The position numbers were made by a program, and so were the translations under genes. DNA of 57,209 nt from a virus: IMG/VR virus record IMGVR_UViG_3300020159_000496, positions 1 through 57,209 of that record, one strand, 5' to 3'. Position 1 is the stretch's first letter; every line of letters begins with the position of its first letter. Positions 8,342-36,300 of the stretch are shown here, piece by piece. The notes beneath the pieces are model-generated. The model saw only the letters and a program-made list of their open reading frames with translations. It was not told the DNA's origin and ran no database searches.

Positions 8342-8718
8342 TACTCTGCTTTCTTTTGACTATCGCCGGGAGCAAGTCTGTAATTGTCTTCTACAGAGTC
8401 TGCGGTACTTACCTCAAATATCATAGCACCGTCCGTCATCGCTTCTAACTGGTGCGGCTGTAGCGGAGGATTGTGCCATGTATCACCTTCGTTTAATTCT
8501 TGTTCATAAATTTTAGAATCTCTAGTATCAATCCAACGTAACTTAAATTTTCCAGAATTTACAAACCATGTTTCATCTTTTTTATTATGAAAGTGCATAG
8601 AAAATTTATTTCCAGCCTTTTCAAAAACTAAGATTTTTCCGCAATACTGATCGGTAGTAGCCCAAATAATTTCGTAACCCCAGCCCTTATCAACTTTACC
8701 TGTTAGTCTTTGTGTCAT
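8341..8718 (-). CDS. Cupin protein, sugar isomerase-like
   Basis: 125 residues forming one beta-barrel domain. GNKFSMHFHNKKDETWFVNSG fits the first cupin motif G(X)5HXH(X)4E(X)6G exactly, giving the metal ligands His-His-Glu; the second motif is GDTWHNPPLQPH with the fourth ligand. The KGWGYEIIW start resembles cupin-type phosphomannose isomerases. In a five-gene heptose operon that lacks the SIS-family isomerase GmhA, it is a candidate for sedoheptulose-7-phosphate isomerisation; a sugar epimerase or binding role is equally possible. AGAGGAAA precedes the ATG, which overlaps the kinase stop (ATGA). Confidence 0.8.
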   Translation of the reverse strand: MTQRLTGKVDKGWGYEIIWATTDQYCGKILVFEKAGNKFSMHFHNKKDETWFVNSGKFKLRWIDTRDSKIYEQELNEGDTWHNPPLQPHQLEAMTDGAMIFEVSTADSVEDNYRLAPGDSQKKAE

Positions 8719-9467
8719 TTTATTTCCTCTAATCTTGGAGCATACACGCCCACGTGTTGTACTGTAATGCCGCTGGCTTTAATAGCAAACTTGATTGCGG
8801 CTTGTACGTATTCTTGTATTAAAAACTCATAGGCAAATGCCGCAAGGAATGTATCTCCAGCGCCAGTGACATCTGTAACATCGCCCACTATCTCTGCTGG
8901 AAAAACCCAGCCGTTCCATATTGCGCCCTGATCACCATGTGTAACAATTAGCCATTTATCTTCGGGTAGACTAGTCGCACGTTTATGCTCTAGTTTGTTA
9001 ATCTTTACATAACATCCGTTGAATCTAGCTAGGTCTGTTTTCTTTGTGTCGATAAAGATTGGACCTTTAAATCTACTACGCAAGTCCTCAACTAGTTCAT
9101 AAGTGACTGCGCCTTTGTTATAGTCACTGATCACAATAGCATCATATGGCGGCAGTTCACTATCAATTGTAATAGGATCGCTAGCTGTATCGTTGTCTAT
9201 GCGAAGTAATTGTTGTTTACTACGTTGATCAATTATACGCTTCTTCTTGCTAGTAGTGCCGTGTAAGAATTGTACATCACATCCTAGTGCTTCTAAATTC
9301 TTACGCACATTGCCTGCCATGCCGTCTTTGACTATTTGATACTTAGGTTCAAATACAGGCACAGGCGCTTCTGGACTGATGCGATCAACGGTTCCGTAGA
9401 CATAGGTGTCTACACAATCATCACCGATTAGTAATATCTTGAATAATTTTTGTTGTTGAATAGTCAT
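8715..9467 (-). CDS. rfaE1: D-glycero-beta-D-manno-heptose-7-phosphate kinase (HldE N-domain, RfaE1)
   Basis: Phosphorylates heptose-7-phosphate at C1. 250 residues of the PfkB/ribokinase fold: GDDCVDTYVYG, RISPEAPVPV at 29-38 (identical in E. coli HldE), SDYNKGA at 115-121, and the anion-hole/catalytic DVTGAGD at 199-205 with D205 as base. It is about 65 residues shorter than the E. coli kinase domain; the lid region after LGCDVQFLHG is contracted, and the usual GGAANVA is GMAGNVR, so substrate handling may differ. No alternative downstream Met exists before the first conserved block, so the gene really overlaps the preceding adenylyltransferase gene by 47 bases. In many bacteria these two domains are one protein. 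Confidence 0.88.
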   Translation of the reverse strand: MTIQQQKLFKILLIGDDCVDTYVYGTVDRISPEAPVPVFEPKYQIVKDGMAGNVRKNLEALGCDVQFLHGTTSKKKRIIDQRSKQQLLRIDNDTASDPITIDSELPPYDAIVISDYNKGAVTYELVEDLRSRFKGPIFIDTKKTDLARFNGCYVKINKLEHKRATSLPEDKWLIVTHGDQGAIWNGWVFPAEIVGDVTDVTGAGDTFLAAFAYEFLIQEYVQAAIKFAIKASGITVQHVGVYAPRLEEIK

Positions 9468-9813
9468 CTAAAGTATCAAAAAATATAATTTTATCGCAGA
9501 CAATCTCGCCGATAATTGGTTTACCCATGTAATCGCTGCCTTTGACCATTATATCACAGGCAGCAACCAAATTAATAAGTTCTACGTCAGTATTAAAAAT
9601 CACAACTTCGTCAACAGCTTTTAAATTCTTAAGCATAAATGCTCTATAGCGTTGATTATTGATTGGACGCTTTGGTCCTTTAAGTTGTGTAACACGCTCA
9701 TCAGAGTCGATTCCGATCATGAGGTGGTCGCCTAAACTCTTAGCATAGTTTAGGAGTTCAATATGTCCTGGGTGGAGAATATCAAAAGTACCGTTAACAA
9801 AAATCAGACTCAT
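9421..9813 (-). CDS. rfaE2: D-glycero-beta-D-manno-heptose-1-phosphate adenylyltransferase (HldE C-domain, RfaE2)
   Basis: Activates heptose-1-phosphate with ATP to ADP-heptose. 130 residues of the cytidylyltransferase-like fold: FVNGTFDILHPGH contains the nucleotide-binding HxGH (14-17), followed by LKGPKRPINNQR, MVKGSDY and DYSTTKII, each matching E. coli HldE C-domain (RLKGDSRPVN, LVKGGDY, GCSTTNII). ATG 9813 fits the family start; an in-frame ATG at 9831 adds six residues but lies within the promoter. The promoter 9820-9847 predicts a transcript that starts on the A of ATG 9813, so this message may be leaderless, while read-through transcripts could use 9831. First gene of the heptose operon. 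Confidence 0.88.
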   Translation of the reverse strand: MSLIFVNGTFDILHPGHIELLNYAKSLGDHLMIGIDSDERVTQLKGPKRPINNQRYRAFMLKNLKAVDEVVIFNTDVELINLVAACDIMVKGSDYMGKPIIGEIVCDKIIFFDTLDDYSTTKIIQDITNR

Positions 9814-9830
9814 GCTGTAATTATACAGCA
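9811..9830. repeat. Perfect palindrome over -10 box and start codon of heptose operon
   Basis: ATGCTGTA-TAAT-TACAGCAT: two perfect 8-base arms around 4 bases on the minus strand. The -10 hexamer lies across the left arm and centre, and the right arm ends in the start codon of the adenylyltransferase gene. This position suits a repressor operator. As RNA, in read-through transcripts it would form a hairpin hiding the start codon. No T-run follows directly, so it is not a typical terminator. Confidence 0.6.
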
Positions 9831-9847
9831 TTGAGCCTGCTTGTCAA
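9820..9847 (-). promoter_or_regulatory. Consensus sigma70 promoter for ADP-heptose operon
   Basis: On the minus strand TTGACA (9847-9842) and TATAAT (9825-9820), both perfect, are separated by 16 bases. With the usual seven-base step the start is 9813, the A of the adenylyltransferase ATG. It lies between the stop of the giant 2695-residue gene and the heptose operon. A 5-base dyad (AGCCT, AGGCT; 9834-9858) also flanks the -35. No late motif is present, so host RNA polymerase would serve this operon. Confidence 0.8.
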
Positions 9848-20170: not shown

Positions 20171-21979
20171 TTAGGTATTTGCTATCTTTATTAATTTACC
20201 GTATTCGGGTAAAAACATATATTCGATATCGCTTTTAACTAGCGTTTCAATAGCGTCGTCTAGGGTTTCAACTAACGGATCACCACCTAAATTAAAGCTG
20301 GTATTAAAAATAATAGGAATACCAGTTTGTGCGTGAAACTCTTTGATTAAATTGTAGTAGTGCGGATTTTGCTCACGCTTGACAGTTTGAATGCGGCATG
20401 TACCGTCAACATGAATAATTGACGGAATTTTTTCAGCAATGCCTGGCTGACAGTTTACCGCATACATCATGTGCGGTGTTTCGTCCATACCGCGTAGATC
20501 AAACCACTCGTGTACATGATCGTGTAAAATACTACCAGCAAAAGGACGGAAATATTCACGACGCTTAACTGCGTTTACAAAATCTTTACCGTCTTCAAAT
20601 GTTGGATCAAATAGCACTGAACGATTTCCCAGGGCACGTGGTCCGTTTTCACTACGGCCTTGGAAAATTGTAACAATATTTTTCTTTCTTAACAGTTCTA
20701 CTACTTCTTTATTAGTAGCATCAACTACTTCGCCGCTGGCATAACTGACTTTTTCTAAAATTTCTTTTTCTGTATAGCTATGTTCAGGTCCTAGATACAG
20801 GGTATCAAGTTTTTGTTTTTCTTTGCTATCAGATAACGCATGCCAAAACATTAATCCAGCACCCATCGCAGTACCAGCATCGTTAGAAATAGGCTCTACA
20901 TATATGTTAATACCTTCATCTTTTAAAGCTTCTAGATAATGATAGTTAGCAACACAATTTAAACCATATCCGCCACTAATCACTACGTTTTTCTTACCAC
21001 TGATCTCAACTGCTTTTTTTATCAAGCGTACAACTTGTTCTTGAGTTTGTGTTTGGCAAGCATAGGCAAGATCTCTACGACTTTGAAGCGTAGTTGGATC
21101 TTGTCCTTCTTCTGGCAGTTCATCTAGGTAATCAAATAGTGCCGAGTTAACAACAGAAGAAGATGGATAGGCAGGAACGATCAAGTTTCTATTAGATAAC
21201 GGAACCTTTGAAGTGAAATCAAACAACTTAGGAATTTGATCGTTTGGAACCCCGTATGGGAATAAACCCATAGTCTTCCCTGCTTCGATAGATGAAAAAC
21301 CGCAATATTCGGTGACAGCCTCATAGGTCTTCACTATACCCGCTCTATCCGAAAGCCATGCTTCATGGAATTCGCCTGCTTCACCAAATTGGTCTGAAGG
21401 GCATTTATCCATATAGGTACCAGCAACTGCTTCACGAGCACCGTAATTTTTATACAACGTTTTAAAACTTGACGGATAGTTACAATCAACAATCGACTCA
21501 ACTTCCCAAACCCATAAGGGTTCGTTGCCGTACATCAACTGAATAAAAGTGCCAGCACCGTCAACGATCAAAGACACTGCGTCATCAAATCCGCTGCGAT
21601 AAAACGCACAAGCAGCGTGAAGCTTGTGATGCATAAAACTTAAATCAACCACTTGTGGGTGATTGTGATTGTCTTCCTTGCGGCTGATAAGACCCAACTT
21701 CCGTGCTAGACCTGTGTATACATCGTCACCACTGAAGTCAATTTTAGCTGCTGTGTCTGATAACTTTTGCGTATGTGCTACTACTAGATAATCTAATTTG
21801 TCTGTATATTCTAAAATCTTTACCATTGAAGCAAGAGGACCACCGTCATATTTTTGACGAGTTAGTCTTTCTTCTTCGATAGAAAAAACAATTTCACCGT
21901 CTTTAAATAGGCACACACCTGCGTTGTGTCCACGTGCTATGGCTGCTATCCAGCCTGAATTAATCTTAGGTTCTGTCAT
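20171..21979 (-). CDS. NodU/TobZ-type carbamoyltransferase
   Basis: Transfers a carbamoyl group from carbamoyl phosphate (through carbamoyl-AMP) to a sugar hydroxyl. 602 residues, family length. It shows IARGHNAGVCLFKDGEI at the start, EEERLTRQKYDG, the metal-binding HHKLHAACAFYRSGF near residue 112, SGGYGLNCVAN near 336, and the C-terminal-domain signature GRSENGPRALGNRSVLFDP near 440. It shares ATGA with the upstream glycosyltransferase gene and ends at a strong terminator, so the two form one operon. Such enzymes occur in phages of aquatic bacteria; the acceptor is unknown. With heptose genes in the same genome a heptose or heptosylated glycan is a plausible target. Confidence 0.92.
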   Translation of the reverse strand: MTEPKINSGWIAAIARGHNAGVCLFKDGEIVFSIEEERLTRQKYDGGPLASMVKILEYTDKLDYLVVAHTQKLSDTAAKIDFSGDDVYTGLARKLGLISRKEDNHNHPQVVDLSFMHHKLHAACAFYRSGFDDAVSLIVDGAGTFIQLMYGNEPLWVWEVESIVDCNYPSSFKTLYKNYGAREAVAGTYMDKCPSDQFGEAGEFHEAWLSDRAGIVKTYEAVTEYCGFSSIEAGKTMGLFPYGVPNDQIPKLFDFTSKVPLSNRNLIVPAYPSSSVVNSALFDYLDELPEEGQDPTTLQSRRDLAYACQTQTQEQVVRLIKKAVEISGKKNVVISGGYGLNCVANYHYLEALKDEGINIYVEPISNDAGTAMGAGLMFWHALSDSKEKQKLDTLYLGPEHSYTEKEILEKVSYASGEVVDATNKEVVELLRKKNIVTIFQGRSENGPRALGNRSVLFDPTFEDGKDFVNAVKRREYFRPFAGSILHDHVHEWFDLRGMDETPHMMYAVNCQPGIAEKIPSIIHVDGTCRIQTVKREQNPHYYNLIKEFHAQTGIPIIFNTSFNLGGDPLVETLDDAIETLVKSDIEYMFLPEYGKLIKIANT

Positions 21980-22917
21980 TTTTTATTTTTTCCTTGAACT
22001 GCGTCTACAATGTATGTGTGGATTTCTGGAGTCATTGACATAATTGTTTCGTGCTTTCTGTCAACTCTTTCGTCCTGTGTTATTCGAATAGGACTGTATT
22101 CTCGAGTATCTTCTCCCATGTCTAGGATAGTAAACAATTTATTTTCAGGGTAAGATACGTTAATTGGATACGTTGATCCAAATAATACAGTAGCTGGTTT
22201 GTCTAAACAGTGGGCCAAATGCTGTCCTAAACTATCACACCCTAAAAAGTGATCAGCATATTTGATAATAGCTGCCCATTGACGCATAGATACGTTTTCA
22301 GGCATGGCAATTTCATCTTTGAATTTTTCGTCAGTGAAATCAATTTTGAATTCACTCATTAAAATTACACCAAAGTCTTTATCTTGTAATTTTTTAATAA
22401 TGGCTTTTACATCTTTAAATTCGATACTACGAGATGTTGAATCAACCGGCGTATCGTCAACAACCTGTATGCCTCTACCAAATGGTTGAAACACAACAAT
22501 TTTACTTTTCTTTATTTGTTTCTTTACATCAGATATTAGTTTACGACCCGTTAACAATTCGTCCTTGCTAAGATTTAATGTGGGTTTTGGCAAAGGTCTA
22601 ATACCTTTTTTATTGATTTCGATGTCAAATGCCTGTGCTATAGAACACTTTTGATTATAATATTCCCATACTCTGTAAGGCTCAGTGCTTATAATATCTT
22701 TATCTTTGAGTTTCTCAATGAAAAGATTTTTATGCCAAACATCATAGGTCCTAGCATCAAGTGTTGGATGTCCTTTAAAAACATCTGTGCCGCCTTCGCA
22801 AATAATGATAAAATCCTTGTCACCGGATTCTTGTTCATATTTTTCAAATGCGGGTATTGCTGAAATCATACGGCCCGCACCGCCGTTTAAAAAAAATGCT
22901 CTAGAGCGTTGTTCCAT
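21976..22917 (-). CDS. GT9-like (heptosyltransferase-family) glycosyltransferase
   Basis: 313 residues in the GT-B fold pattern of family 9: an N-terminal NGGAGRMISAIPAF segment, a central KKSKIVVFQPFGRG strand as in the donor-domain start (family: ...i.i.pGa), and a C-terminal YADHFLGCDSLGQHLAHCLDKPATVLFGSTYP near 220-250, matching the D-S-x-x-x-H-x-A-x-x-x-x-x-P-x-x-x-x-F-G-x-T motif of heptosyltransferases. GT9 enzymes usually use ADP-heptose, which the operon at 6966-9813 could supply. TTGGAG lies 6 bases before the ATG but is partly buried in a long inverted repeat (22925-22987). Cotranscribed with the carbamoyltransferase gene. Donor not proven. Confidence 0.75.
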   Translation of the reverse strand: MEQRSRAFFLNGGAGRMISAIPAFEKYEQESGDKDFIIICEGGTDVFKGHPTLDARTYDVWHKNLFIEKLKDKDIISTEPYRVWEYYNQKCSIAQAFDIEINKKGIRPLPKPTLNLSKDELLTGRKLISDVKKQIKKSKIVVFQPFGRGIQVVDDTPVDSTSRSIEFKDVKAIIKKLQDKDFGVILMSEFKIDFTDEKFKDEIAMPENVSMRQWAAIIKYADHFLGCDSLGQHLAHCLDKPATVLFGSTYPINVSYPENKLFTILDMGEDTREYSPIRITQDERVDRKHETIMSMTPEIHTYIVDAVQGKNKK

Positions 22918-22998: not shown

Positions 22999-23646
22999 TT
23001 AATAATAATTTGGTAAATTATTTGGGAATGGAATTTTCCAGTGGTCTATTCCAGCATAACGTCTTTCTAGATCACGCAACCATGCCACGTGGTCAGCTAG
23101 AGTCTGTTCGTCTTCTTCTGGGTAATCATTTAATTGGATACTATTTTCTATCATTGTTGCGATTTGAAGATAATTTTCAATCATACTTGCTTTGGTAACA
23201 GCGTGTAATCTGTATTCTGGACCAACAAATTGATTGCTGATGTATTTCAACGATTGTCCGTAAAAACACTGTCCTATTGAACCAGTATTATCATCATAGT
23301 GATACGTATAGTTCCACTCATTTCCGTCTGCATCAACTAAGTCTGTAGAATAATCTGGAACTTCGTTTGTTTCATAAGAGTGTAACAAATAAGCACAGGC
23401 AAACGGATGTTCAACAGCATCGATCAAATAAAATGTTGTTGCTGGATCATCATCAACTAGCGTTTCAAAATTAATCTCTGCTAAAGATTCGCCTTTTCTA
23501 GCAACATATTTGATTTCGCCGGTAGCATCAATCACACAGATAGCAACATAACGCGGACCTGTATATACCGCATTTTGTACCTTGTTTAGAGCTGTGGTAT
23601 TTTTGTACGGCTCGTCTGGTAGTAAAAATGTAAAATTTTTTCTCAT
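22999..23646 (-). CDS. Unknown protein next to adhesins, possible chaperone
   Basis: 215 residues, acidic, without signal peptide, membrane segment or known motif. Residues 30-90 look beta-rich (YVAICVIDATGEIKYVARKG, then TTFYLIDAVEHPFACAYLL); the C-terminal third is helical (TLADHVAWLRDLERRYAGID) and ends HWKIPFPNNLPNYY. AGAGGAAG precedes the ATG, and a late promoter overlaps the stop of the preceding adhesin gene. In T4-like phages genes just behind the distal adhesins often encode fibre assembly chaperones, so that is a guess from position; the family is not recognised. Confidence 0.65.
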   Translation of the reverse strand: MRKNFTFLLPDEPYKNTTALNKVQNAVYTGPRYVAICVIDATGEIKYVARKGESLAEINFETLVDDDPATTFYLIDAVEHPFACAYLLHSYETNEVPDYSTDLVDADGNEWNYTYHYDDNTGSIGQCFYGQSLKYISNQFVGPEYRLHAVTKASMIENYLQIATMIENSIQLNDYPEEDEQTLADHVAWLRDLERRYAGIDHWKIPFPNNLPNYY

Positions 23647-23662
23647 AATCTTCCTCTAACAA

Positions 23663-23670
23663 TATTTATG
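23663..23670 (-). promoter_or_regulatory. Late promoter CATAAATA overlapping a stop codon
   Basis: The minus strand reads CATAAATATTG; the TAA in it is the stop codon of the adhesin gene upstream (23666-23668). Predicted start 23657 leaves 11 nt of leader, which includes part of the AGAGGAAG site of the 215-residue gene. Confidence 0.6.
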
Positions 23671-24634
23671 TAAAGAACCTAATTCTAACAGCACCCCAGC
23701 CGCCTCGGCCAGCGTGGTCTCTAACACCCGGACATGGTGTTGTTGCGTGGCCACCTGTTCCAGGCGTAGCGTAGTGCATACATCCGTGCATCTCATAGCA
23801 ACCACACGATCTATCTGATCTCCAGCAATAATTCATTGGAATACCTGCTGTAGGTGATCTTCTTAATGCCGAAAACGCATTTGTTTCTGCCATCTGAGTC
23901 TGTCCTGACCACTGACCGTATCTGTTGTCGTCTTCAGCACCAAATGCTGCTACGTTACCGGCTCCGCAGCTATAAAATCCTGCTGGGGATGCTACGTGGA
24001 ATTGTGTACAACACGGACATGCTGGTTGGCATCCAAAAAATGCTGTACAGCTAAACTGGCCACAACAGTTAACATCACCACCGTAGGCACAGGCAATCCA
24101 AATACCTGAGAAGTAGTTACAGATAATACCGCAGTTGTCATTAAACGGTCCAGTAAAGCAATGACTTTGGTTTACAAAACAACAGAACATTGAAGTACCT
24201 GTTGAACACATGCCGCGACCGCCTGCTCCACCTTGAGCACAAATACAACCGTTTGCTGTAACACCACTGGAAGTCCAACACACTTCTGTTGGATCAGAAC
24301 AACCTCTAAAACATAAAGCTGATGAATTACCGCAACTATTACCAATTGTTCCGCGAACAAAGTTACTGGCAGTTACTTGAATAGTGCGTTTTGCGTATGC
24401 TCCTGCATTGCCTGGTGTACCACCACCGCAACAGCACATTTGAGCACCACTACCACCAGCACCCCAAACTTCAATTACTGCTCGGCCAGTTCCCGGTGGG
24501 TTCCAACAAAAGCCACTACAGAAGTTTGTGTACATTGTACCGGGTGTGAACACATAGATTTTACCTGTTTCTAAGTTTTCTTCAACTCGGCCAGTGACTC
24601 TAGATCTAATTAAATTTTGAAACGATGTAGGCAT
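23666..24634 (-). CDS. Cys/Gly-rich adhesin paralogue 1 of 3
   Basis: 322 residues with 31 cysteines and abundant glycine, an extreme composition for a virion protein. Starts MPTSFQNLIRSRVTGR, followed by a beta segment (KIYVFTPGTMYTN), then VIEVWGAGGSGAQMCCCGGG, the pattern of glycine-rich phage adhesin domains (V-x-V-W-G-A-G-G). Later CNYFSGIWIACAYGGDVN and a C-terminal block DHAGRGGWGAVRIRFFT shared with both neighbours. No signal peptide. Clustered Cys (CCC, CC) suggest disulfides, metal sites or tight turns in a polyglycine-type fold. Probably receptor binding at the tip of a tail fibre, by analogy with glycine-rich gp38-like adhesins. AAGAGAAG lies before the ATG; the next paralogue ends 12 bases upstream. 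Confidence 0.75.
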   Translation of the reverse strand: MPTSFQNLIRSRVTGRVEENLETGKIYVFTPGTMYTNFCSGFCWNPPGTGRAVIEVWGAGGSGAQMCCCGGGTPGNAGAYAKRTIQVTASNFVRGTIGNSCGNSSALCFRGCSDPTEVCWTSSGVTANGCICAQGGAGGRGMCSTGTSMFCCFVNQSHCFTGPFNDNCGIICNYFSGIWIACAYGGDVNCCGQFSCTAFFGCQPACPCCTQFHVASPAGFYSCGAGNVAAFGAEDDNRYGQWSGQTQMAETNAFSALRRSPTAGIPMNYCWRSDRSCGCYEMHGCMHYATPGTGGHATTPCPGVRDHAGRGGWGAVRIRFFT

Positions 24635-24646
24635 TATATTCTTCTC

Positions 24647-25642
24647 TTATAAGTCTTGTACTGTACCATCTTGAATGAATCGGATACGAATAGCACCATG
24701 ACCACCACGATAGGCATGATCGCGAACGTCTGGGCATGGAAACGCTGGTAATCCTGGGAATCCTGGCGGAACAAATGGAATACATCCATTGCCGTCATAG
24801 CATCCGCAGGTTCTACCACCGGTCCAACATCTATGAGCACCGTCAACACCACGACCTGGTTGGCGACCTGCTACGTTTAATCCGTAGAGGAATCCGTTCA
24901 GAGCCATTCCGCTCCAGTTAGAGTGGCCGTTATCGCCTTCGTTGGTGTAGGTAATCTCGCCGCCACAGTCCGAATAGTAACCAGGTGGAGTTGCCACGTG
25001 ATATATTGTTGAACATGGACAGCTTGGTGTACACCCAAAGAATGAAGCACGACTAAATCCGCCTCTTAAGTTTACATCTCCGCCAAACGCATCAGCACAA
25101 CAGCTGGCAGTGCCGCCGCCATAATTACAAATAATACCGCAGTTGGCATTGAACGGGCCTGTTCCGCAGAAACTACCAGCTTGAAAACAGCACCACATTG
25201 ATGTTCCGGTTGAACAATAAGTAGTACCTCCTCGACCGCCTTGAGCACACATACAGCCGTTTGTGGTTGTTGAACGCCAGCATACGCCAGTGGACTCTGA
25301 ACAACCTCTAAAACATAAATCGTTTGAGTTACCGCAGCTAAAACCAATTGCTCCGGTAATTAAACAACCTGTGGCTACACAGATTGTTCTTTTCGAATAC
25401 GCACCTGGATTTCCAGGAATTCCGCCACCGCAACAACACATTTTAGCACCACTACCACCAGCACCCCAAATTTCTACGGTAGCTATACCGTTAGCAGGTG
25501 CTATCCAGCAAACTTCGCCGCACATCTTTGTACGGACGTTGCCGTGTGTGTAAGCCCAAATTCTACCTTGTTCTAAGTTTTCTTCCTCAAAGGCAATAAA
25601 CGGTTGTTTTGCTTGGACAAGACCTTTAAATGATGTAGGCAT
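24647..25642 (-). CDS. Cys/Gly-rich adhesin paralogue 2 of 3
   Basis: 331 residues with 30 cysteines, colinear with its neighbours: MPTSFKGLVQAKQPF start, VEIWGAGGSGAKMCCCGGG, SCGNSNDLCFRGCSES, GCMCAQGGRGG, FFGCTPSCPCS, and RDHAYRGGHGAIRIRFI near the end, with a short extra tail DGTVQDL. It differs from the others most around residues 175-195 (CNYGGGTASCCADAFGG) and 225-260, the region likely to be exposed. Good ribosome binding site AGAGGGA. The gap to the upstream paralogue is one base, so the three are cotranscribed. Role as for paralogue 1. Confidence 0.75.
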   Translation of the reverse strand: MPTSFKGLVQAKQPFIAFEEENLEQGRIWAYTHGNVRTKMCGEVCWIAPANGIATVEIWGAGGSGAKMCCCGGGIPGNPGAYSKRTICVATGCLITGAIGFSCGNSNDLCFRGCSESTGVCWRSTTTNGCMCAQGGRGGTTYCSTGTSMWCCFQAGSFCGTGPFNANCGIICNYGGGTASCCADAFGGDVNLRGGFSRASFFGCTPSCPCSTIYHVATPPGYYSDCGGEITYTNEGDNGHSNWSGMALNGFLYGLNVAGRQPGRGVDGAHRCWTGGRTCGCYDGNGCIPFVPPGFPGLPAFPCPDVRDHAYRGGHGAIRIRFIQDGTVQDL

Positions 25643-25643
25643 A

Positions 25644-26612
25644 TTATTGTCCCTCTATAAATCTAATACGGATAGCACCGTGGCCGCCGCGTCGGGCATG
25701 ATCTCTAACCTCAGGGCAAGGATTTGGGGGTGTGCCTGGATATCCAGGACCTACACCTGTGTAGCAACCTTCGTTTTCATAACAGCCGCAGCCGCCACCA
25801 AAGCCCCAGCAGTAAGACCAAGGAACACCGTGTGTTGGTTGTCTCGACTGTGCGTTTAATGCTGATTGATGTTGGTGAGCACCTTGGCCCGACCAGTTTG
25901 AGAATTCGTTATTGTTTTCTGTACCAAATACTACAACTCCACCGCATTTAGATACATATCCCGGAGGTGTTGCTACGTGATAGGTAAAAGAACAGATGCA
26001 TGGGCCTTGACAGCCCATGAATGCTGTACATGAAAATCCGCCACATCTATTAATGTCGCCGCCATAGGCACAGGCAATCCAAATTCCACCAAAGTAGTTA
26101 CAGATTGTTCCGCAGTTGTCGTTGTATGGTCCACGGAAACAGTATCCGTTGGCAGCAAAACAGCAATATAACGATGATCCTGTTGTACAGAATGAACGCC
26201 CGCCCGCTCCACCTTGAGCACACATACATCCTGAAGCACCGCAGTTGCCTGTCCAACATATCTGCGTTGGGTCTGAGCAACCTCTAAAACAAAGTGCGTC
26301 AGCGTTGCCGCAGCTAAATCCTACTGATCCACAGATGTAACAGTTTGTGTTTACCTGAATAGTGCGTTTTGAATACGCTCCTGCGTTACCAGGAAGTCCG
26401 CCACCGCAGCAGCACATACGAGCACCGCTTCCGCCAGCACCCCAAATTTCTACAACTGCTGTACCTTTGGCAGGTGCTCGCCAACAAATTTGATAGTTGG
26501 TAAAGTTGTTACCTGGTGTAAACACATGGATTCGGCCACGCTCTAAATGTTCTTCAGTAGCGTATATTCCGTCACCTTTGATCTTTACCAGGTTTTTAAA
26601 TGATGTTGGCAT
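25644..26612 (-). CDS. Cys/Gly-rich adhesin paralogue 3 of 3
   Basis: 322 residues with 31 cysteines. MPTSFKNLVKIKGDG start, VVEIWGAGGSGARMCCCGGG, CGNADALCFRGCSDPTQICW, CNYFGGIWIACAYGGD, FMGCQGPCICS, and DHARRGGHGAIRIRFIEGQ end. Over much of its length it is closer to paralogue 1 (same CNYFxGIWIACAYGGD and NDNCG blocks) than to the middle copy, so the array probably grew by more than one duplication or by exchange. AGGAAG precedes the ATG. First of the three in transcription, 21 bases after the 110-residue gene. Confidence 0.75.
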   Translation of the reverse strand: MPTSFKNLVKIKGDGIYATEEHLERGRIHVFTPGNNFTNYQICWRAPAKGTAVVEIWGAGGSGARMCCCGGGLPGNAGAYSKRTIQVNTNCYICGSVGFSCGNADALCFRGCSDPTQICWTGNCGASGCMCAQGGAGGRSFCTTGSSLYCCFAANGYCFRGPYNDNCGTICNYFGGIWIACAYGGDINRCGGFSCTAFMGCQGPCICSFTYHVATPPGYVSKCGGVVVFGTENNNEFSNWSGQGAHQHQSALNAQSRQPTHGVPWSYCWGFGGGCGCYENEGCYTGVGPGYPGTPPNPCPEVRDHARRGGHGAIRIRFIEGQ

Positions 26613-26633: not shown

Positions 26634-26966
26634 TTAAGCAGATGCTACGATCCAGCCGTATGTTGCTCCGCTGTAAATCAAAGTAATAATTGAGCCGTTA
26701 ACGTCAATGGTTAAATCGTCGGCAATGTTTTGAATTTTAGCACCGTTTCGACCAATAGTAATATTGTTTGTAGCTGCTAGACCTCCAATGTCAATGATCT
26801 GAATAGTGTCATTGAGTAAAAGTGTAGAAGCATTCGGCAATGTAATAGTAAAAGCTGCTGCTGTACTATTAGCTAAAATTCGATCATTGACTGTGGCGTT
26901 AAAAGCACCAGAAACTTCGCGAATAACGTTATTTGCTGTGCCAGTTGTTGTGATATATCTTCCCAT
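26634..26966 (-). CDS. Small beta-rich virion protein, 110 aa
   Basis: Alternating hydrophobic/Thr/Asn residues with the segment FTITLPNASTLLLNDTIQII, then NNITIGRNGAKIQNIADD and LIYSGATYGWIVASA. This pattern (TLP....GD.I.i.D..g....N.iTI.rNG..I.G) is common in short tail-fibre or fibre-tip proteins of phages. No Cys, no signal peptide. Directly downstream of a late promoter (26987-26994) with an AGGGGAA ribosome binding site, and first gene of the adhesin operon; possibly the adaptor on which the adhesins sit. Confidence 0.7.
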   Translation of the reverse strand: MGRYITTTGTANNVIREVSGAFNATVNDRILANSTAAAFTITLPNASTLLLNDTIQIIDIGGLAATNNITIGRNGAKIQNIADDLTIDVNGSIITLIYSGATYGWIVASA

Positions 26967-26986: not shown

Positions 26987-26994
26987 TATTTATG
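26987..26994 (-). promoter_or_regulatory. Late promoter CATAAATA overlapping a stop codon
   Basis: The minus strand reads CATAAATATAC; its TAA is the stop codon of the 106-residue gene (26990-26992). Predicted start 26981 leaves a 14-nt leader containing AGGGGAA. It would drive the 110-residue gene and the three adhesin genes. Confidence 0.65.
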
Positions 26995-27310
26995 CTGTAG
27001 GCGTTTCTATGCCAAACGCTACAGCACTGACGTTTGCGGCACTGGAATAAACTACTAGTAGTCTACCAGCATCCATAACGATACCTGTACGTTCTAGAAC
27101 GCCCTTACCCAATACTTCTGTGTCAAATTCGATCCACTCAGCTGCTGTGGGTGTTGCAGCTGCTGAGATAGCTACTCTAATAGAACATGCTTGATTGTTT
27201 CTATTACAAATTGACAACGTAACCACCGAAAAAGTGTCCGATGGTACGGTGTAAACCGATGTATTTGTAGCTTGTGCTAGATCGCTTGCTCCTAATCTAC
27301 CTGTTGCCAT
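26990..27310 (-). CDS. Small beta-sandwich-like virion protein, 106 aa
   Basis: MATGRLGASDLAQATNTSVY start, SVVTLSICNRNNQACSIRVA, EWIEFDTEVLGKGVLERTG and AVAFGIETPTA. This order (strand, N-rich turn, strand, E-x-L/G-x-G-x-L, strand) recurs in the 109- and 123-residue proteins at 39473 and 53479, so they look like paralogues placed beside fibre genes. Ribosome binding site GGAGAAA. Twelve bases after the 2003-residue fibre and cotranscribed with it. Likely a fibre connector or tip; inference. Confidence 0.7.
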   Translation of the reverse strand: MATGRLGASDLAQATNTSVYTVPSDTFSVVTLSICNRNNQACSIRVAISAAATPTAAEWIEFDTEVLGKGVLERTGIVMDAGRLLVVYSSAANVSAVAFGIETPTA

Positions 27311-27322
27311 TTAGTTTCTCCG

Positions 27323-30300
27323 TTAACTATGTAAAAATAAGTTCATAGCCACTGGGATTCCATTAATACCACCGATGAAATTCATCTTAGCAAGCACGTT
27401 TATTTGCCCGCTTGTAGTGGTTGTAATGTAGTCATTAGCTACAAATATCTGACCTGCTGTAAGAGTATTTACGTTCAATGTGCTCGAGCCCGAGCCAATT
27501 TGTGAAGATATATACGCTTTAATAGCTCTTTGAGTAGGTATAACTGAATCTGAATCCTGTGTGAAGAATGGATCTGTTGAAAATTCAGTAACTGTAGCAC
27601 CCCCTGTGCCTAATTCAACTGAGCCTAAACTGAGCTCTTGTAGACCTGCAATGTTAAACGCATCAGCATTTAATGTTGCTGTACCAGTACTTTGTTCAAC
27701 GGTAAACAACCCGCCAACTCTAAAGTTACCATCTTGGTCGGTACTTGTATAGAATACACGACCACCGTTGCTTTCTACAGTTTCATTATCTGGTATTGGA
27801 TCTGACAACGGTAGTCCCGGATAGTTTGTATTGCTAAAGTTTCCAGTACCAATGTCTAAGAAGTCATGTCCTGTTAATCGAACCTGTGAGTATCTAATTC
27901 TAATTTCAAAAGGATCTTCATGCGGGGCAACTTCAGATATTTCAATAGGTGGGCTTATTTGTAATCTAGCCGTGTACGGACCTGTTCCTAACAGCTGAGT
28001 AACGTTTACTAGTTTATAGAATTTGCCGGGAATACTGGCAAATTCAACGTTTGAACCTGGAATCGGTATAGTGTAAAATCCCTTGACGTCGACTAAGCTA
28101 CCGTTTTGGAATAGGTCAGCATATCCATCGCCTGATACTGTAGCAGTAGCAACTTCCCAATCAGCACCACGATCAATAAATGTTGGATTCGCCAACACCC
28201 CGTTGCCTACTCTAACAGTAAACGGTACTTCGTAGGTATTGTTAGGATCGGTGATAGTAATGCTTGGAGGTGATCCAGAAACATAACCACTGCCTGGTTC
28301 AACAACTCTAAATTCTATAATTTTAGTATCAACAACTCGAGCTCTAACATAGGCTTTTGATCCAGTTACCAATGCTGCCGGTCCTGTTCCTACTGATTGA
28401 GGAATTACCCATATTGGTGATCTGTTTGGATTACCAAAGACCGGACGACATGTAGTAGTAAATGTTGCTGTACCCTGTGTCCAGGTTATACCATCCTGCG
28501 ATTTATAATAAGCAACTGATGAAGCATGGCTAGTTGCTACAAATAAACCTTGACCGTAGCCAACTTCGTCAGCATTAATGGTTCCAGCTACTGCTACCCA
28601 TGTTGTGCCGTTGTTGCTGATTGCTACATTACCTTCAGTTGATAGAGCAACGAATACGTTATTACCAAACGCAATGCTATTCCATGTAGCAGATGTCGGC
28701 AACGCAGCGGCAGTCCATGAAATACCATTTAAACTGTAAGCACTAGCAGTGCCGCCCGCAGCAACAGCAAAGAATCTTCCTTTACCGTAGGTTATACTTT
28801 GCCAATTAGTTGAGCCTGGTAATACGTTAGCACCGTTAGCCCATACTGTTCCACCTGTTGACACTAAAGGATTATTAGAATCTGAACGAACAGCAACGAA
28901 TCTGTCACCTCCAAATGCCGCTGATGTAACAGCACTAGTTTGTGGTAAGGCTGATGCTGACCACGTTTCTCCGCCATTGATGCTATAAGCCGCGGTTGAT
29001 GTTGCTGATATACCTAATGCCACAACATAAGCTACGTTACTAATAGTTCCGGAGGCTAATGCTGTCCACTGTGCCGAAAACGGCAATGTTGATAATGACC
29101 ATGTTGTGCCGTTTGTTGAATAATATGCTTGATTTATCGACACTCCTGCGTTTGAAAGAATCGTTACAAAGTTGCCGCCCCTGCCGATACCTTCATGAGA
29201 GAAAGTTAAAATTTCTCCTACTGTTATACCGGCCGTAGAATCAACAGTTTCAACACGTATGCTGATATCGTTAGCCGGTGAAGCACCGCCAACTGCTGTT
29301 CCAGCAATGGTTAACAGATTGTTATTAACATAATTTTGTCCTGCTTGATTTAAAGTTACTGTATAAGTTAGTCCGTTTCTAACTATGTTAAATGTTGCTC
29401 CGGTGCCAGTGACGCTGCCTGTAGCAGGTATATTAGTAAATGTTTGTCTTACATTAGCATAAACAGCATCTGATTGGCCAGATGCTGAACCACCCGAAAC
29501 GCTAGGTGAACTCTCAGCAGGTGCCGGAATATTAACTCTTGGTTCGATGATGTACAATGATGATGGATCTGGTGATACAATAGTAGTACCTGGAATTACA
29601 TGATCCCATCCAGCCGTGCCTGTTGATTCTTTAAGAACTGTGGCAATTTTACTACCAGCATTATAGGTATTAATATAACCATACTGCCCAACGCCTACAC
29701 CAGATTGAATGTAAATTCTCATACCGACATACGCAGAGCTTGTTTGGTCGTCTGTGGCAGCAAGAGTTATTGCTGTTGTTGAACCACCCTGGGCTACGTT
29801 TTCAGCACTTAGGTAATCTAGTCCGCCAAACTGTCCAGAACTGTCGTCGACATCTAATAGTCTAAGTTCAAATATACCACCATCGCGGGTTTCATCGCCC
29901 ACTGTAGTGAATGCAGTGCCCGGACCGTTAAATGTAAACGCAGCAGATGTGTAATTATTACCAGCATTTGAATATTCAACTCGATAGACTTGTTGTCCAC
30001 TAGTTAAAGACTTTGTTGATATCGCTTCTTCATACCTATTATTAACAATACCAGTAATTGGCGTTTCAGTGGCATCAACACCTTCAGCTACGCAACCAAA
30101 TTCGCCGTATGAGCTGTTGCCGTTAGTAGCACGAATCTTACCACCATTTTCTGCTAGGTATCCAATGTGTCCATAATATCCGAACACTGAAACTAATTCT
30201 GTTCTACCTAAATTAGTACACCAAACACCGATACCATCGGATAGCACTTGTGTAAAGTCGTTGCTAACGATAGATTTGTTTCCGCCGGCATGTAAATCGC

Positions 30301-33300
30301 CGTCAATTTTACATCCAACACAGGCAGTACCAAATGTAGTAACGTTTTGAACGTAACATGATCTTGTGGTAATCCAAACTGATTCGTCATTTGGTCCCCA
30401 TCCTGGATCTAAAGAAGTGTAAGCCCCTGCTGTAGGTCTACGAGTACCGTAGGCATTAGGAGCTCCTAGTGTACCAGTTAGTCCTTGAACAGTTAGGTTT
30501 CTAATGCCTGTTGCGTTTCTAACCAAGAACATGTTTTCTGTTAGAGATCCAGTTACACCGTTTACATAAAACTTAGCCGACATCAATGTCTTGTAGTTGC
30601 CTGTATATGTTAGATCATATTTAAAAGCATCGATATATTCGCTAACATCCCTAGCACAGGCAGCAAGGCTGTAAGTGTACGCAGGGTAAGTTAACGAAAT
30701 ATACGCATGAACTTCAGCAATAATAAATTCTCTATTAAGTTCAAGCTGTCGTACCGCAGAGTAGACATCGTATAAAGATGACGCAGCATTTGATCCTGTC
30801 ATTGTAGGAGCAGATCCAGTGGCATTAATATAAAAGTTAATATACGCAGTTGCGTTGGTTATTAACCCAGTCAATAATGTTCCCTGAGTAGCAGTGGCAA
30901 ACGGTTTAGTTTGACTCTGAGATAATGTGTTGGGATTTGAACCTGTTGTTGTTTTTGCTACAGTGGTGCCTTGTACAATGTCACTGATAATAGCACTAAT
31001 TCGTGATAGAGCATCTAAACTTTTTGGAACATCAGTGACATCAATTTGTGATGCTGATGGTCTAATATTTGTTGAGCGTAGTTCGTCGCCTACTACAGCA
31101 GTATCAATCGGCACAACAATTGGCAGTGTTTCAAAGAACACGCCAGTTTTAACTAGAATTGTTCTCTGTGGTTTTACTTCTGCTCCAACACTTCCTAATG
31201 TACCGCCACTGATTGCTACTGTGATTAATGATTTTAAACTTGAAACTTCTGCGAATGACAGGGCTTCTGCTACAAAATCTGTATCAATAATCTGTAAAAT
31301 TCTATTATTGACAGGGACACTGTTAGTAACTTGATAGTTTGTAGCTGGAGCAGCATTTAACAATACCGCAGTGTTAACTAACGTAGTTATTGCGTAGTTA
31401 ATTGCTGCTACAGTTTCTTCCTTCTGTCCTAATCCGTAGAATGTAGAAGCATTAGTTACATATTCAACTGCTGCTTTTCTAGATCTAGCATTACCACCAT
31501 GACGGAGGTCCCATAGAATAGCATCGATGATCAAGCCAACATCTCGTTCACACTTGGTTGTATCGTAAGAAAAACTAGATACAAACGGTGAGATATTATT
31601 TGCAATCTGATAGTTGATCCACTGTACAGTTTCTCGCTGTACAAACTGTCTATTAATTTCCATTAGACGTGCTGCTTGAGGATTTCTAGTACCTTTTTCA
31701 ATCTGCTCAGCAGCGTATCGTACTGTTCTCCAGGGCTTGTCTAGAGTAACACCGTAGGCTGGTGCTGTTTGATCGACTCCATCTAAGCTCACATAATATA
31801 ACTGATCAACTTCACCCCAATATCTCCACTCGGGCGCTTGGGCATTGCCAACAACTAGTACTTGGCCGTCTGCGCCAATTGGCAATCTTGTTGGACCAGC
31901 ACCGCCGTAGTAGACAAGGTCACCCTGTGTGGTTAGCACAGATGATTCTTGACCGTTGGCTAATAGGTTCCAAACAGTTCCAGTAACATCAATATCTGGT
32001 CTATTTGTAGCAGATGCTGATGTATGAGCATTCACGCAAACATAACTATTAGGTCCATAACGAACTGCTTCACCTAACACATACCCGTAGCCGTTTGCCC
32101 ATGCTCCTAACCAACGAATACCGGGATTTAATTGTTCCCAGTATGTTAAGTTTGGCGGCTTTTGATTTGTGTTATCAGCAATAGCAACATAGGTAAAACC
32201 GCTTAATCTTATAACATCGCCTACTCGATAATCAGTAGATAAATTCCAGTCTTGTTGGAATTTAAATGCTGTGGTAAACAGATCCCAGTTTTGCGAACCT
32301 GTTACAGCCTGCGTAGGTTTAATGTTGCTATGGTTTGTGGTAGCTACATAAGCATAACCGCCATAGGTAATAATATCACCAGGTTGATAAATTGTTGAAC
32401 TGTTCCAGCTATCTTCGAACTGAATACCTTCTAAAAATTCTCCCCAGTAACCGGAGTCTTCATCTTGCTCAAACGTTCTAGACAATGATGATGAATGTTT
32501 TTGTAAACAGATATAAATGCCGTTGCCATTTTTAACAAGATCGTTTACTTTATAATTCTGATCTTCAGCATCCCATAACCCAAGGTATTCAATGCCTTGA
32601 TTAAAATAATCCCACTTGCTTTGATCATCTTCTAGACCAAGAACAAATGTTGCTGCCGCAGGGTGTCCTTCGTTACACACATATGATGTGCCACCAAAAG
32701 ATACTACGTCGTTGATTTTGTATCGGGTTCCTGGGGTCCAGTCACCTTTCCAATCAAATGCTTCTGAGAACTGATCCCATTTATTGATATCTGCCTTTTG
32801 ACCTGCAGTTAGTCTATCAAGTCCTTCTAATCCCATAGCCGCTGTTGGGGCTGAAGTATGTCCTAGATTACACAAATATGTATTGCCGCCATATTTGACA
32901 ATGTCGTTTAATTTGTATCTAGTGTTGGTTGTCCAGTCACCTTTCCAATCAAACCCTTCGGCAAATTGATCCCACTTAGTTTGCGTACTATCGCCAAGAT
33001 CAAGATCAACTTCTAGGCCAACACTTACATCAGCATTTGAAGTATGTCCAACTAAACAAATATAAATTTGAGCACCGTATTTGACAATGTCGTTTTCAAA
33101 ATACGTTGTGCCCGGAGTCCAATCTCCACGCCATGATTGACCATCGCTGGCCTGATTCCAACGTGCTGGGAAGTTGTCCGCATCCACATAAAAATCTGGA
33201 TCTGCTGTATGACCTATAACGCAGATGTAAACACGACCGTTTACACGTACTACGTCGTCTTTAAGGTAAGAGGTCCCTGAGATCCACTCACCTTTCCATA

Positions 33301-33334
33301 CAAATCTAATTCTACCTAATTTAAACTCTGCCAT
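27323..33334 (-). CDS. Giant tail-fibre protein (2003 aa) with CBM-like modules, beta-helix and Asp-box repeats
   Basis: Presumed host-recognition fibre. Residues 1-461 are eight modules of about 50-65 residues with W-K-G-x-W...Y...D-I/V-V-K-Y-G...Y-x-C...H-T-S...W, like family 5/12 carbohydrate-binding modules. Around 510 comes YYVSLDGVD; two Cys-Arg-Asp helical segments lie at about 595 and 910; about 720-1090 is beta-helix-like (TGVFFETLPIVVP, then RNLTVQGLTG, GNKSIVSNDFTQVLSDGIG). About 1390-1630 holds Asp-box-type repeats (YSTNGTTW, YSINGGETW, YSLNGISW). The C-terminal 250 residues contain HDFLDIGTGNF and GGRVFYTSTDQDGNFRVGGL, shared by all four giant fibres from 27323 to 52595. The CGGAG site and a late promoter lie before the ATG. 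Confidence 0.85.
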   Translation of the reverse strand: MAEFKLGRIRFVWKGEWISGTSYLKDDVVRVNGRVYICVIGHTADPDFYVDADNFPARWNQASDGQSWRGDWTPGTTYFENDIVKYGAQIYICLVGHTSNADVSVGLEVDLDLGDSTQTKWDQFAEGFDWKGDWTTNTRYKLNDIVKYGGNTYLCNLGHTSAPTAAMGLEGLDRLTAGQKADINKWDQFSEAFDWKGDWTPGTRYKINDVVSFGGTSYVCNEGHPAAATFVLGLEDDQSKWDYFNQGIEYLGLWDAEDQNYKVNDLVKNGNGIYICLQKHSSSLSRTFEQDEDSGYWGEFLEGIQFEDSWNSSTIYQPGDIITYGGYAYVATTNHSNIKPTQAVTGSQNWDLFTTAFKFQQDWNLSTDYRVGDVIRLSGFTYVAIADNTNQKPPNLTYWEQLNPGIRWLGAWANGYGYVLGEAVRYGPNSYVCVNAHTSASATNRPDIDVTGTVWNLLANGQESSVLTTQGDLVYYGGAGPTRLPIGADGQVLVVGNAQAPEWRYWGEVDQLYYVSLDGVDQTAPAYGVTLDKPWRTVRYAAEQIEKGTRNPQAARLMEINRQFVQRETVQWINYQIANNISPFVSSFSYDTTKCERDVGLIIDAILWDLRHGGNARSRKAAVEYVTNASTFYGLGQKEETVAAINYAITTLVNTAVLLNAAPATNYQVTNSVPVNNRILQIIDTDFVAEALSFAEVSSLKSLITVAISGGTLGSVGAEVKPQRTILVKTGVFFETLPIVVPIDTAVVGDELRSTNIRPSASQIDVTDVPKSLDALSRISAIISDIVQGTTVAKTTTGSNPNTLSQSQTKPFATATQGTLLTGLITNATAYINFYINATGSAPTMTGSNAASSLYDVYSAVRQLELNREFIIAEVHAYISLTYPAYTYSLAACARDVSEYIDAFKYDLTYTGNYKTLMSAKFYVNGVTGSLTENMFLVRNATGIRNLTVQGLTGTLGAPNAYGTRRPTAGAYTSLDPGWGPNDESVWITTRSCYVQNVTTFGTACVGCKIDGDLHAGGNKSIVSNDFTQVLSDGIGVWCTNLGRTELVSVFGYYGHIGYLAENGGKIRATNGNSSYGEFGCVAEGVDATETPITGIVNNRYEEAISTKSLTSGQQVYRVEYSNAGNNYTSAAFTFNGPGTAFTTVGDETRDGGIFELRLLDVDDSSGQFGGLDYLSAENVAQGGSTTAITLAATDDQTSSAYVGMRIYIQSGVGVGQYGYINTYNAGSKIATVLKESTGTAGWDHVIPGTTIVSPDPSSLYIIEPRVNIPAPAESSPSVSGGSASGQSDAVYANVRQTFTNIPATGSVTGTGATFNIVRNGLTYTVTLNQAGQNYVNNNLLTIAGTAVGGASPANDISIRVETVDSTAGITVGEILTFSHEGIGRGGNFVTILSNAGVSINQAYYSTNGTTWSLSTLPFSAQWTALASGTISNVAYVVALGISATSTAAYSINGGETWSASALPQTSAVTSAAFGGDRFVAVRSDSNNPLVSTGGTVWANGANVLPGSTNWQSITYGKGRFFAVAAGGTASAYSLNGISWTAAALPTSATWNSIAFGNNVFVALSTEGNVAISNNGTTWVAVAGTINADEVGYGQGLFVATSHASSVAYYKSQDGITWTQGTATFTTTCRPVFGNPNRSPIWVIPQSVGTGPAALVTGSKAYVRARVVDTKIIEFRVVEPGSGYVSGSPPSITITDPNNTYEVPFTVRVGNGVLANPTFIDRGADWEVATATVSGDGYADLFQNGSLVDVKGFYTIPIPGSNVEFASIPGKFYKLVNVTQLLGTGPYTARLQISPPIEISEVAPHEDPFEIRIRYSQVRLTGHDFLDIGTGNFSNTNYPGLPLSDPIPDNETVESNGGRVFYTSTDQDGNFRVGGLFTVEQSTGTATLNADAFNIAGLQELSLGSVELGTGGATVTEFSTDPFFTQDSDSVIPTQRAIKAYISSQIGSGSSTLNVNTLTAGQIFVANDYITTTTSGQINVLAKMNFIGGINGIPVAMNLFLHS
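31952..33334 (-). repeat. Eight tandem CBM5/12-like modules (2003-aa fibre)
   Basis: Modules end at about residues 65, 127, 192, 247, 303, 356, 405 and 461. Best-kept positions are the first Trp pair (WKGDW), NDIVKYGG, Y-x-C and H-T-S. At DNA level, repeated stretches such as the codons for FDWKGDWT in modules 3 and 4 are near-identical. Confidence 0.7.
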
Positions 33335-33376: not shown

Positions 33377-36300
33377 TTAACCTAAATCCCTTCCTACCTC
33401 TTGCCCATCAAGATTGCTATTAAATCCGTCTGAGAACATGCTCATAGCCAGCATCATCCCCGAAATACCCTTCTTAATATTAACATTTACTGGTATATTC
33501 ACATAGGTATTTGTTGTACTACCAATATTATTTGGTCCACCTATTCTAACAGTACCAGCTATTAGTGTACCAGTAGCAGCTTCTGAGCCGCCTCCCGAAA
33601 TACGTCTAGAAACAAATGCTTTAATTGCCCTTTGTGTTGGGACAATATTATTAGAATCAGCAGCAAATGTAACATCTGTTGAAAATTCTCTAATAACCAC
33701 TCCAGTGCCGCCGACACGGATACCGCCTAAACTAAGTTCTGATAAGCCACCTAGATCAAAGTAATCAGCACTAATTGTTACAACACCGGTTGCTTGCTCA
33801 ACAGCAAACAATTCACCAACTCTAAAGTTACCATCTTGATCAGTACTTGTGTAAAATACTCGACCACCACCCCTGTTATATACTTCGTTTTCTGGTGCTC
33901 TTGACAAAGTCCCTTGAGTATATAAGACAGGATAATTTGTTTGTTCAAAATTTCCTGTTCCAATATCTAAGAAGTCGTGTCCAGTTAGGCGTACCTGACT
34001 GTATTTTTCTCGTATCTCAATAGGAGTATTATGAGGCGGACTATTTGTTCTATTAAAATCCGGAGCTACCCTAAGAGCTAATCTATAGTTACCCGGTGCT
34101 CCACTAAGAATATCAACAGTTAGCACTCTGTACACTCGATTATCTGAGCCGTCTGATGCTACGGCAGCAGTGTTGTCTGACAATACGAGATACTTGTTCA
34201 ATCCTGCTACAGCGGCTGTTGGATTACTTATTGGCAGATCTCTTTCTAACCAATCTAATCCCAGTCTAGAAGAGTATGTTGCTGATCCTGTACCTGAAAA
34301 TAACACAAATTTCCTATTAGCGAAAATAATATGTGACCAATCGTCAGTGTCAGGTGCTGCTAATACATCCCATGTGTTGCCGTCATCTTCCGACACAGCA
34401 AACTCATCGCTATTTTTAGCAATTAATATTAAATGGTCGTTGCCGTATGCTAAATCTGACCATTCTTGTGTTGCTGTTATTGTACGGATAAGCCATGTTT
34501 GGCCGTCTAACGAAATTGCAACCTTGTCACTGTTTTCAGCAATGGCTACAAAATTGTTTACACCGTGTTTAACTTTGACCCAATTAGCACTAATTGGCAA
34601 CGATGAAGACAACCATGTTACGCCATTGTCAACGGAATATAACGCACTAGCCGATCCATTAGATATCACTGTCCATCTATCGTTGACAAAGTCTATAGAT
34701 GTCCAGTTTCCTGTTGGAACTGTGAGTGTGGTCCAAGTTGTTCCGTTGGTGCTTTTAGCAAAAACTGTACCGTAAGCAACAGCAATATACACACCGTTGG
34801 CATATTTTATATCTCTCCAATCACGCTGGACTGAGATTGTAGTTGAGGTCCACCCAGTACCGTTGGCCGAATAAACAATTTGAGATAATCCAGCACCTTG
34901 GTATGTTATTGCTACAAATTTATCGCTGCCTACAGTTGCCCCTCCCCAAGGGCCAGATATTGGCAGCACCGAAGGTGTCCAACTTACTGTGTTTAACTCA
35001 AAGTTAGCACCTGTTCTAACTACTCTTGGTACTCCGTCAATGATAAGGTGCCCGCCTAGCTCGTAGATATCAGCATACCCATCACCGGCCACGGTTACCC
35101 GTGTAGTTGAAGTTTTGTAACCTATTCCTCGACTTAAAAACGTAGGATTTGCCAATACGCCATTGCCTATTCTAAACTCGTAGTTAGGTTGAGATGTAGA
35201 AACTGGATCAGAAAACGTAAAGATTGGTTGGGCAATGTAACCGCTACCAGGCTCCCATATTTTCATACTTCGTATTCTTCCTCCAGAAATGATTGGTCTT
35301 CCTCTAAAAGTAGCACCGTATTGGAATGTAGATATGTTGCCGCTGCCCAAGGTAGACGATAGCACTGCCCATCGACCTCTTGAATCGGTGTTAGGTATAA
35401 ATGCTGCGGTTGTTCTATCCGAAATACTGGCAGTCAATGCTTTTAATTCCCATACAAAGCCGCCGCTGTCTGATACTGCTACAAACTGAGTGTTACTGCT
35501 ACTAACAGCAACAAATAAGCCTTGAGCATAGCTGATTCGATTCCATGCTGTATCAAACGGTAGGGTTGACAGATACCAAGCAACACCATCAAAACTGTAG
35601 GCCACTGCGTTAGAGTTACTAGATATAGCTACGAACCTGTTATTACCGTAACACATATCAGTCCAAATAGGCTGAGTTGAGTCACCGAACGTTGGAATAT
35701 TAAAGCCAGCAGTCCAAGAAGAACCGTCTGTAGTGGTTACAGTTTTGCCGTCTTGACCAATTACTACGAATTTATTTTTGCCGTATGCTACAGCCGCCCA
35801 TGGTGCTGTAACCGGAGTAGACACGGTTGACCATGTCGAAGATGCTACAGTATATACTGCCACTGATGTAGATGCCGACGGAGAAGTAGCTATAAATTTT
35901 CCATTGCCACCAGCAACGTTTTTACTGCCGTTGATACCAATGTTAGCCGCAATCGTTGAATAAGTGAAAGATGACCCGCTCCATGTGCCGACTATTGCTG
36001 AAGTTCCAAGAGTTACAGCAACTACAGTATTGGCTCCGTCCCAGGCAATTGCGGTATAAAAATCTGCATTAGCAGTAGAACCGACGTTGACTAAATTTGT
36101 TTCGTCACTGCCTTCATATATTCTTCCATTAGTACCGTCAGTAGTTCGCCCGGTTGCTAACATTCTATCAAATGCTGGTATGTATAAAGAATCAGTAAAA
36201 TATCTAACATCACCGACCGATGCCGCGGTTGTATATGTCGGAGCTGCTGTAATCGGACGTGGTTCAATTCTATATACTGTTGTAGTATCTAGTAATGCCG

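Follow-up and report, generated by a model that had tools for sequence, protein, structure and literature searches.

Cysteine-dense genes for likely tail-tip proteins lie beside a GT9-type glycosyltransferase gene in very different phages

Phages of very different kinds carry cysteine-dense tail genes next to one particular glycosyltransferase (GT) gene, and this pairing suggests that phage tails undergo a chemical modification not yet described. The finding centers on three cysteine- and glycine-rich (Cys/Gly-rich) genes of a large aquatic phage, in a viral DNA of 57,209 nucleotides, positions 1 to 57,209 of IMG/VR record IMGVR_UViG_3300020159_000496, hereafter called the window. We give roughly even chances to the reading as a whole, in which the three genes encode tail-tip proteins that have a chaperone and are modified by the neighboring GT, cysteine being the candidate acceptor. 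The strict GT link offers a direct test of whether phages chemically modify their receptor-binding tips, and on which residue.

All three genes are on the minus strand. In transcription order they lie at 25644-26612 (copy 1; 322 aa, 31 Cys), 24647-25642 (copy 2; 331 aa, 30 Cys) and 23666-24634 (copy 3; 322 aa, 31 Cys). The open reading frames (ORFs) bear out the colinearity, lengths and cysteine numbers given in the initial annotation, and the WGAGGSGA-x-MCCCGGG core and RGG-G-A-[IV]-R-I-R-F end that it described were found in all three copies. Cysteine accounted for 9.1-9.6% of the residues in the three copies versus 0-2.5% in 26 other genes of the window. So much cysteine is unexpected in proteins that are synthesized in the bacterial cytoplasm; for phage tails, the literature searched yielded no description of it. 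An alignment of the copies contained 36 cysteine columns, 26 of them common to all three, and the first 35 residues of every copy were without cysteine. Copies 1 and 3 had been called the most alike, which held only marginally: their identity was 59.3%, compared with 58.3% for copies 2 and 3 and 54.1% for copies 1 and 2. The Cys/Gly arrays are not a product of chance, because they are found again and again, in dozens of contigs as well as in cultured phages.

A PHROG profile search matched the window copies to phrog_4205 (copy 1, E 2.3e-11). This family and phrog_35878 have no function assigned in the library and take in the window proteins as well as Cys-rich proteins of cyanophages. With the Gly_rich_2 profile (PF21722; cut-off 24.3 bits), the window copies gave either 15.9 bits (one copy) or no match, copy 3 having its match below the cut-off. 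Relatives exceeded this cut-off in phages S-CAM1 (40.4 bits) and S-SSM7 (24.9 bits), as did two proteins of a jumbo phage related to the window (27.4 and 28.9 bits), and profile comparison joined the family groups (A2-A3) with an E-value of 1.9e-24. It is through these relatives that the window family is linked to tail-tip proteins. No solved structure was convincingly related to the Cys/Gly proteins by sequence. The fold evidence comes from an AlphaFold model of copy 1 as a monomer (pLDDT 82.9, pTM 0.83). The best PDB match of this model in Foldseek was the fiber of cyanophage Pam3 (7ypx; E 1.3e-5, probability 1.00, TM 0.45/0.56), with which the model aligned along its full length; next came the Bxb1 tail tip and the glycine-rich domains of ALK/LTK. 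The profile and model data bear out the glycine-rich tail-tip identity proposed earlier, and the Cys/Gly proteins are likely to be receptor-binding tip proteins.

The Pam3 fiber docks through a helical domain, binds its receptor with a glycine-rich tip and requires a chaperone (PMC9608196). Like copy 1, Pam3 gp24 consists of an N-terminal helix, a beta domain and a glycine-rich tip; its chaperone, gp25, is separately encoded, and may have a counterpart in the probable chaperone that a separate gene of the window encodes. Pam3 has a single fiber gene, whereas the window has three paralogues and a GT. Furthermore, the Pam3 paper mentions neither cysteine nor disulfide (PMC9608196), whereas the window copies are packed with cysteine. 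A glycine-rich tip encoded just after the long fiber is also found in the gp38-type adhesins of T4-like phages (Salmonella phage S16 gp38, Syn9 gp38). Syn9 gp38 was among the Foldseek matches and is above the Gly_rich_2 cut-off. The tip-like glycine-rich proteins in the same slot of Syn9 contain 10 and 1 cysteines, and the GT protein search gave no match in Syn9. In the window proteins, the Cys-free N-terminal helix would dock the tip, and the glycine-rich beta domain would present loops.

The Cys/Gly genes form the middle part of a cassette. A fiber gene and two small genes come before them, and genes for a chaperone, the GT and a carbamoyltransferase come after; in the window, every one of these lies on the minus strand. 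The large tail fiber (27323-33334; 2003 aa; phrog_9851 tail fiber protein, E 1.6e-199) is the presumed carrier of the tips. Between it and copy 1 are two small conserved tail proteins of 106 aa (26990-27310; phrog_11338 tail fiber protein, E 4e-10) and 110 aa (26634-26966; matching parts of tail-fiber PHROGs). Downstream of copy 3 lie a probable tail-fiber assembly chaperone (22999-23646; 215 aa), a GT9-type (heptosyltransferase-like) GT (21976-22917; 313 aa) and a carbamoyltransferase (20171-21979; 602 aa; Pfam Carbam_trans_C, E 1e-57; Carbam_trans_N, E 4e-26), which is a conserved neighbor. Neither the chaperone nor the strict GT9 linkage had been noted in the initial annotation. Of the 86 loci with an array, 76 have the two small genes (106 and 110 aa) ahead of the Cys/Gly genes, and 75 have the fiber there; behind the Cys/Gly genes, the chaperone, GT and carbamoyltransferase were found in 70-74 loci, the remainder being mostly cut by contig ends. 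The window chaperone matches phrog_9740 only in part, at its N terminus (E 9e-6), and its predicted fold had no match in a search of the PDB. In related phages, its phrog_9740 homologues score above the Pfam Phage_tail_APC cut-off and also match PHROGs for tail fiber assembly; those above the cut-off include homologues from a window-related jumbo phage with another array subtype. The tip proteins would be folded with the help of this adjoining chaperone and mounted on the large fiber encoded upstream. Virion proteomes of array-bearing phages were not found in the literature searched.

The cassette is shared by jumbo phages and cultured cyanophages, which are very different groups. Each of the cultured Synechococcus phages S-CAM1, S-CAM3, S-SSM7 and Sf-FS3 has three Cys-rich genes in its cassette, and Prochlorococcus phage P-SSM2 has two. 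In S-SSM7 and Sf-FS3 (L097, L098), the tail and heptose genes are interspersed with several genes for 2OG-Fe(II)/prolyl-4-hydroxylase-like oxygenases. L111, a contig recorded as a Euryarchaeota MAG, carries two Cys/Gly genes, the chaperone, two GT genes and the carbamoyltransferase; because it bears the phage cassette, it is probably a misbinned phage. In the window, the fiber gene itself appears duplicated, since the fiber at 27323-33334 and the adjoining giant fiber gene at 33377-39091 both match phrog_9851.

We sampled GT loci from IMG/VR with a GT profile and defined Cys-dense ORFs as those with at least 15 cysteines in 150 aa. All 54 loci whose two flanks were visible had a Cys-dense gene within 6 kb, a count that overstates independence since the loci share ancestry and are not 54 separate events. 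The gene was on the GT strand in 46 loci and only on the opposite strand in 8. A one-strand scan had left apparent GT loci without a Cys-dense gene; these were rejected, as in every case with enough flanking sequence the gene lay on the other strand. Five loci with the opposite-strand arrangement (L255, L256, L262, L266, L272) have one or two paralogous genes, with products starting FGCSYTxYxWPTW, between the GT and the carbamoyltransferase. When tiles of the same size were laid across phage genomes of 270 kb and 233 kb, a Cys-dense ORF appeared only at the array itself; outside the array, no ORF of 100 aa or more exceeded 6.4% cysteine. Seen from the arrays, the GT was present in 72 of 78 loci with a visible flank. 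All six exceptions belong to a single-copy group (L041, L064, L065, L066, L076, L089) that is without the usual cassette neighbors. Their contigs, fragments of 11-28 kb, carry no GT anywhere, which counts against the reading that we favor. In L066, the single-copy gene is near the major head protein gene and adjoins another fiber-like gene.

The Cys-dense proteins beside the GT are of several unrelated types. The GT protein search also yielded O18 and P14, two single-cell records in which no array was detected; at the same place they have Cys-dense, glycine-poor genes (758 aa with 73 Cys, 290 aa with 31 and 282 aa with 26); phmmer found no similarity among their products or to the window family. 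Vibrio N4-like phages encode a distant GT homologue (24-26% identity), and the next gene specifies a tail protein with 41 or 39 cysteines; an environmental relative has 58 cysteines in 760 aa. The latter and the protein of Vibrio phage SBP1 pass Pfam Phage_Tail_Tip. BLAST masks low-complexity sequence, and missing matches in annotated phages are weak evidence. Downstream of a carbamoyltransferase in L200 (11464-14727), a 1087-aa protein has 25 cysteines, all in its last 267 residues, which form another unrelated tip-like region dense in cysteine.

Cysteine density follows the GT gene and not the fold, and this association persists when the orientation, the protein type or the phage family changes. 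Read most simply, the linkage means that the neighboring tips are the target of the GT, which would most likely modify them before they leave the cell. Since the unrelated proteins beside the GT have nothing in common but their excess of cysteine, cysteine is the candidate target, and we tentatively propose, at clearly less than even confidence, that it is what the enzyme acts on. In the favored version the cysteines would be the acceptors of an S-linked sugar, perhaps heptose and perhaps carbamoylated. If true, this would explain why unrelated tail proteins next to one enzyme are packed with cysteine. In its general form, the proposal is that unrelated phage groups have filled their tips with cysteines as sites of S-linked sugar, perhaps heptose, for a dedicated GT9, giving a dense glycan coat on any fold; this we regard as possible rather than probable.

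The window GT (22.9 bits) and the Vibrio phage enzyme (25.2 bits) are above the cut-off of 22 for Glyco_transf_9 (PF01075); matches to LPS heptosyltransferases were weak, with scores far below the NCBIfam equivalog-level cut-offs. The window also contains ADP-heptose genes on the minus strand (6966-9831; Pfam, TIGR02197): a heptose epimerase (6966-7877; TIGR02197 above the equivalog cut-off), a phosphatase-like gene (7853-8341; Pfam), a cupin (8341-8718; Pfam), a heptose kinase-like gene (8715-9467) and an adenylyltransferase-like gene (9421-9831), the last two resting on rfaE domain I and II matches that are both below cut-off. As with GT9 heptosyltransferases, there is a GT9 domain, here with ADP-heptose genes in the region and an adhesin as possible target. 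The similarity is weak and partial, and the known targets of GT9 heptosyltransferases are sugars, whereas cysteine is proposed here. Protein O-heptosyltransferases of adhesins are known, with serine as acceptor; neither S-linked heptose nor a GT9 enzyme with cysteine as its acceptor is known to us. Because marine Synechococcus LPS is, to our knowledge, without heptose, a phage with a target of its own would have to provide the sugar itself, which perhaps explains the heptose genes of large cyanophages.

A different role for these enzymes is that the GT, carbamoyltransferase and heptose genes serve only to alter glycans of the host or phage that have nothing to do with the tips, their linkage to Cys-dense genes being that of an inherited host-interaction island. 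The GT and carbamoyltransferase could indeed act on surface glycans instead of tips: the GT resembles LPS heptosyltransferases, and LPS gene clusters co-occur in large cyanophages, the authors being unsure of their role (Sullivan et al. 2010, PMC3037559). However, the linkage survives inversion, a change of Cys-dense protein type and a change to unrelated phage families. Moreover, the adenylyltransferase-type domain occurs in cyanophage and jumbo records and is absent from Vibrio phages, which nevertheless keep the GT and the Cys-rich tip and could use host ADP-heptose. We therefore consider glycan remodeling rather unlikely.

To return to modification of the tips by the GT, its most debatable part is the acceptor residue. 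Over 79 sequences, 8 cysteine columns were invariant and 19 were conserved at 90% or more; cysteine was the most conserved residue type. Substitutions in close pairs involved cysteine in 5.5% of cases versus about 18% expected, an approximate value with a few contributions from truncated ORFs. As far as alignments can tell, these data show strong selection for cysteine; the conservation of individual cysteines would be explained by structural roles no less well than by sites of modification. Because the positions are conserved, disulfides are a strong rival: the tips would fold reduced in the cell and become cross-linked by oxidation, either after lysis or as the tip is assembled, and the GT would separately glycosylate Ser/Thr/Asn or alter host surface glycans. 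Cysteine number per protein was slightly under-dispersed (ratio 0.83 to the expectation for independent columns), adjacent CC pairs were enriched in cyanophage members, and the ALK/LTK domains matched by the copy 1 model are those of extracellular receptors, all of which are consistent with disulfides. On the other hand, odd and even cysteine totals were about equally frequent, 8 of 52 close pairs differed by exactly one cysteine, and cysteines are also spread through the Vibrio Phage_Tail_Tip protein. A search for sulfhydryl oxidase gave no match, but neither did the controls; thioredoxin was encoded in 1 of 19 records searched. Since single-cysteine changes are tolerated and even totals are not preferred, the data speak against obligatory, all-paired intrachain disulfides. 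The strict GT link is left unexplained by disulfides, to which, taken broadly, we assign a real but minority chance.

The cysteines might alternatively hold a metal (e.g., Fe-S, Fe or Zn) that stabilizes the tips or exploits metal-uptake receptors. The very high cysteine density would suit this role, and an IscU/NifU-type Fe-S scaffold gene was present in 6 of 13 array-bearing environmental records (L066:2517-2897 and the records behind L001, L020, L022, L049 and L061). However, IscU was absent from all six cultured cyanophages searched and from two terminase-selected array records, and the gene was not found in 17 terminase relatives, mostly fragments; an Fe-S link through IscU was rejected as not general. 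CxxC spacing was depleted in the window copies (2 seen versus 9.3 expected), which speaks against CxxC metal sites. Metal binding has no link to the GT, and we regard it as improbable.

The initial annotation pictured an array diversified by duplication and exchange. Duplication there was, but it is ancient, and exchange was limited to one block of ~35 aa near residues 140-175 of copies 1 and 3, apparently swapped between the window group and L019/L020. In a tree of 177 proteins, grouping followed array position (7 label changes) and not genome (134); copies 2 and 3 of the window fell in the position-2 and position-3 clades, and recent duplication was thereby ruled out. Among 76 loci with visible flanks, 57 had three copies, 12 had two, 6 had one and 1 had four. 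The expected rapid diversification was not seen: in close relatives the copies were 84-95% identical, overall no less than the fiber or chaperone. Nor did per-site entropy reveal hypervariable tip loops. It was lowest in cysteine and glycine columns and low at 61-80 and 131-140, so that the most conserved stretches include the Cys/Gly loops, and the N terminus was among the most variable regions. Judged by these comparisons, the array is an old, functionally fixed set and not a fast-changing one. The lasting position-specific paralogues suggest distinct roles in one complex: the three ancient copies may have been kept together for different jobs, and a heterotrimeric tip is possible.

Finally, the window has its affinities among jumbo phages close to Pseudomonas phage PA5oct, whose terminase shares 53% identity with that of a close relative of the window. 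No psbA was found in 16 related records. Because psbA is lacking and the terminase is PA5oct-like, a cyanobacterial host was set aside: the window phage probably infects something other than a cyanobacterium.
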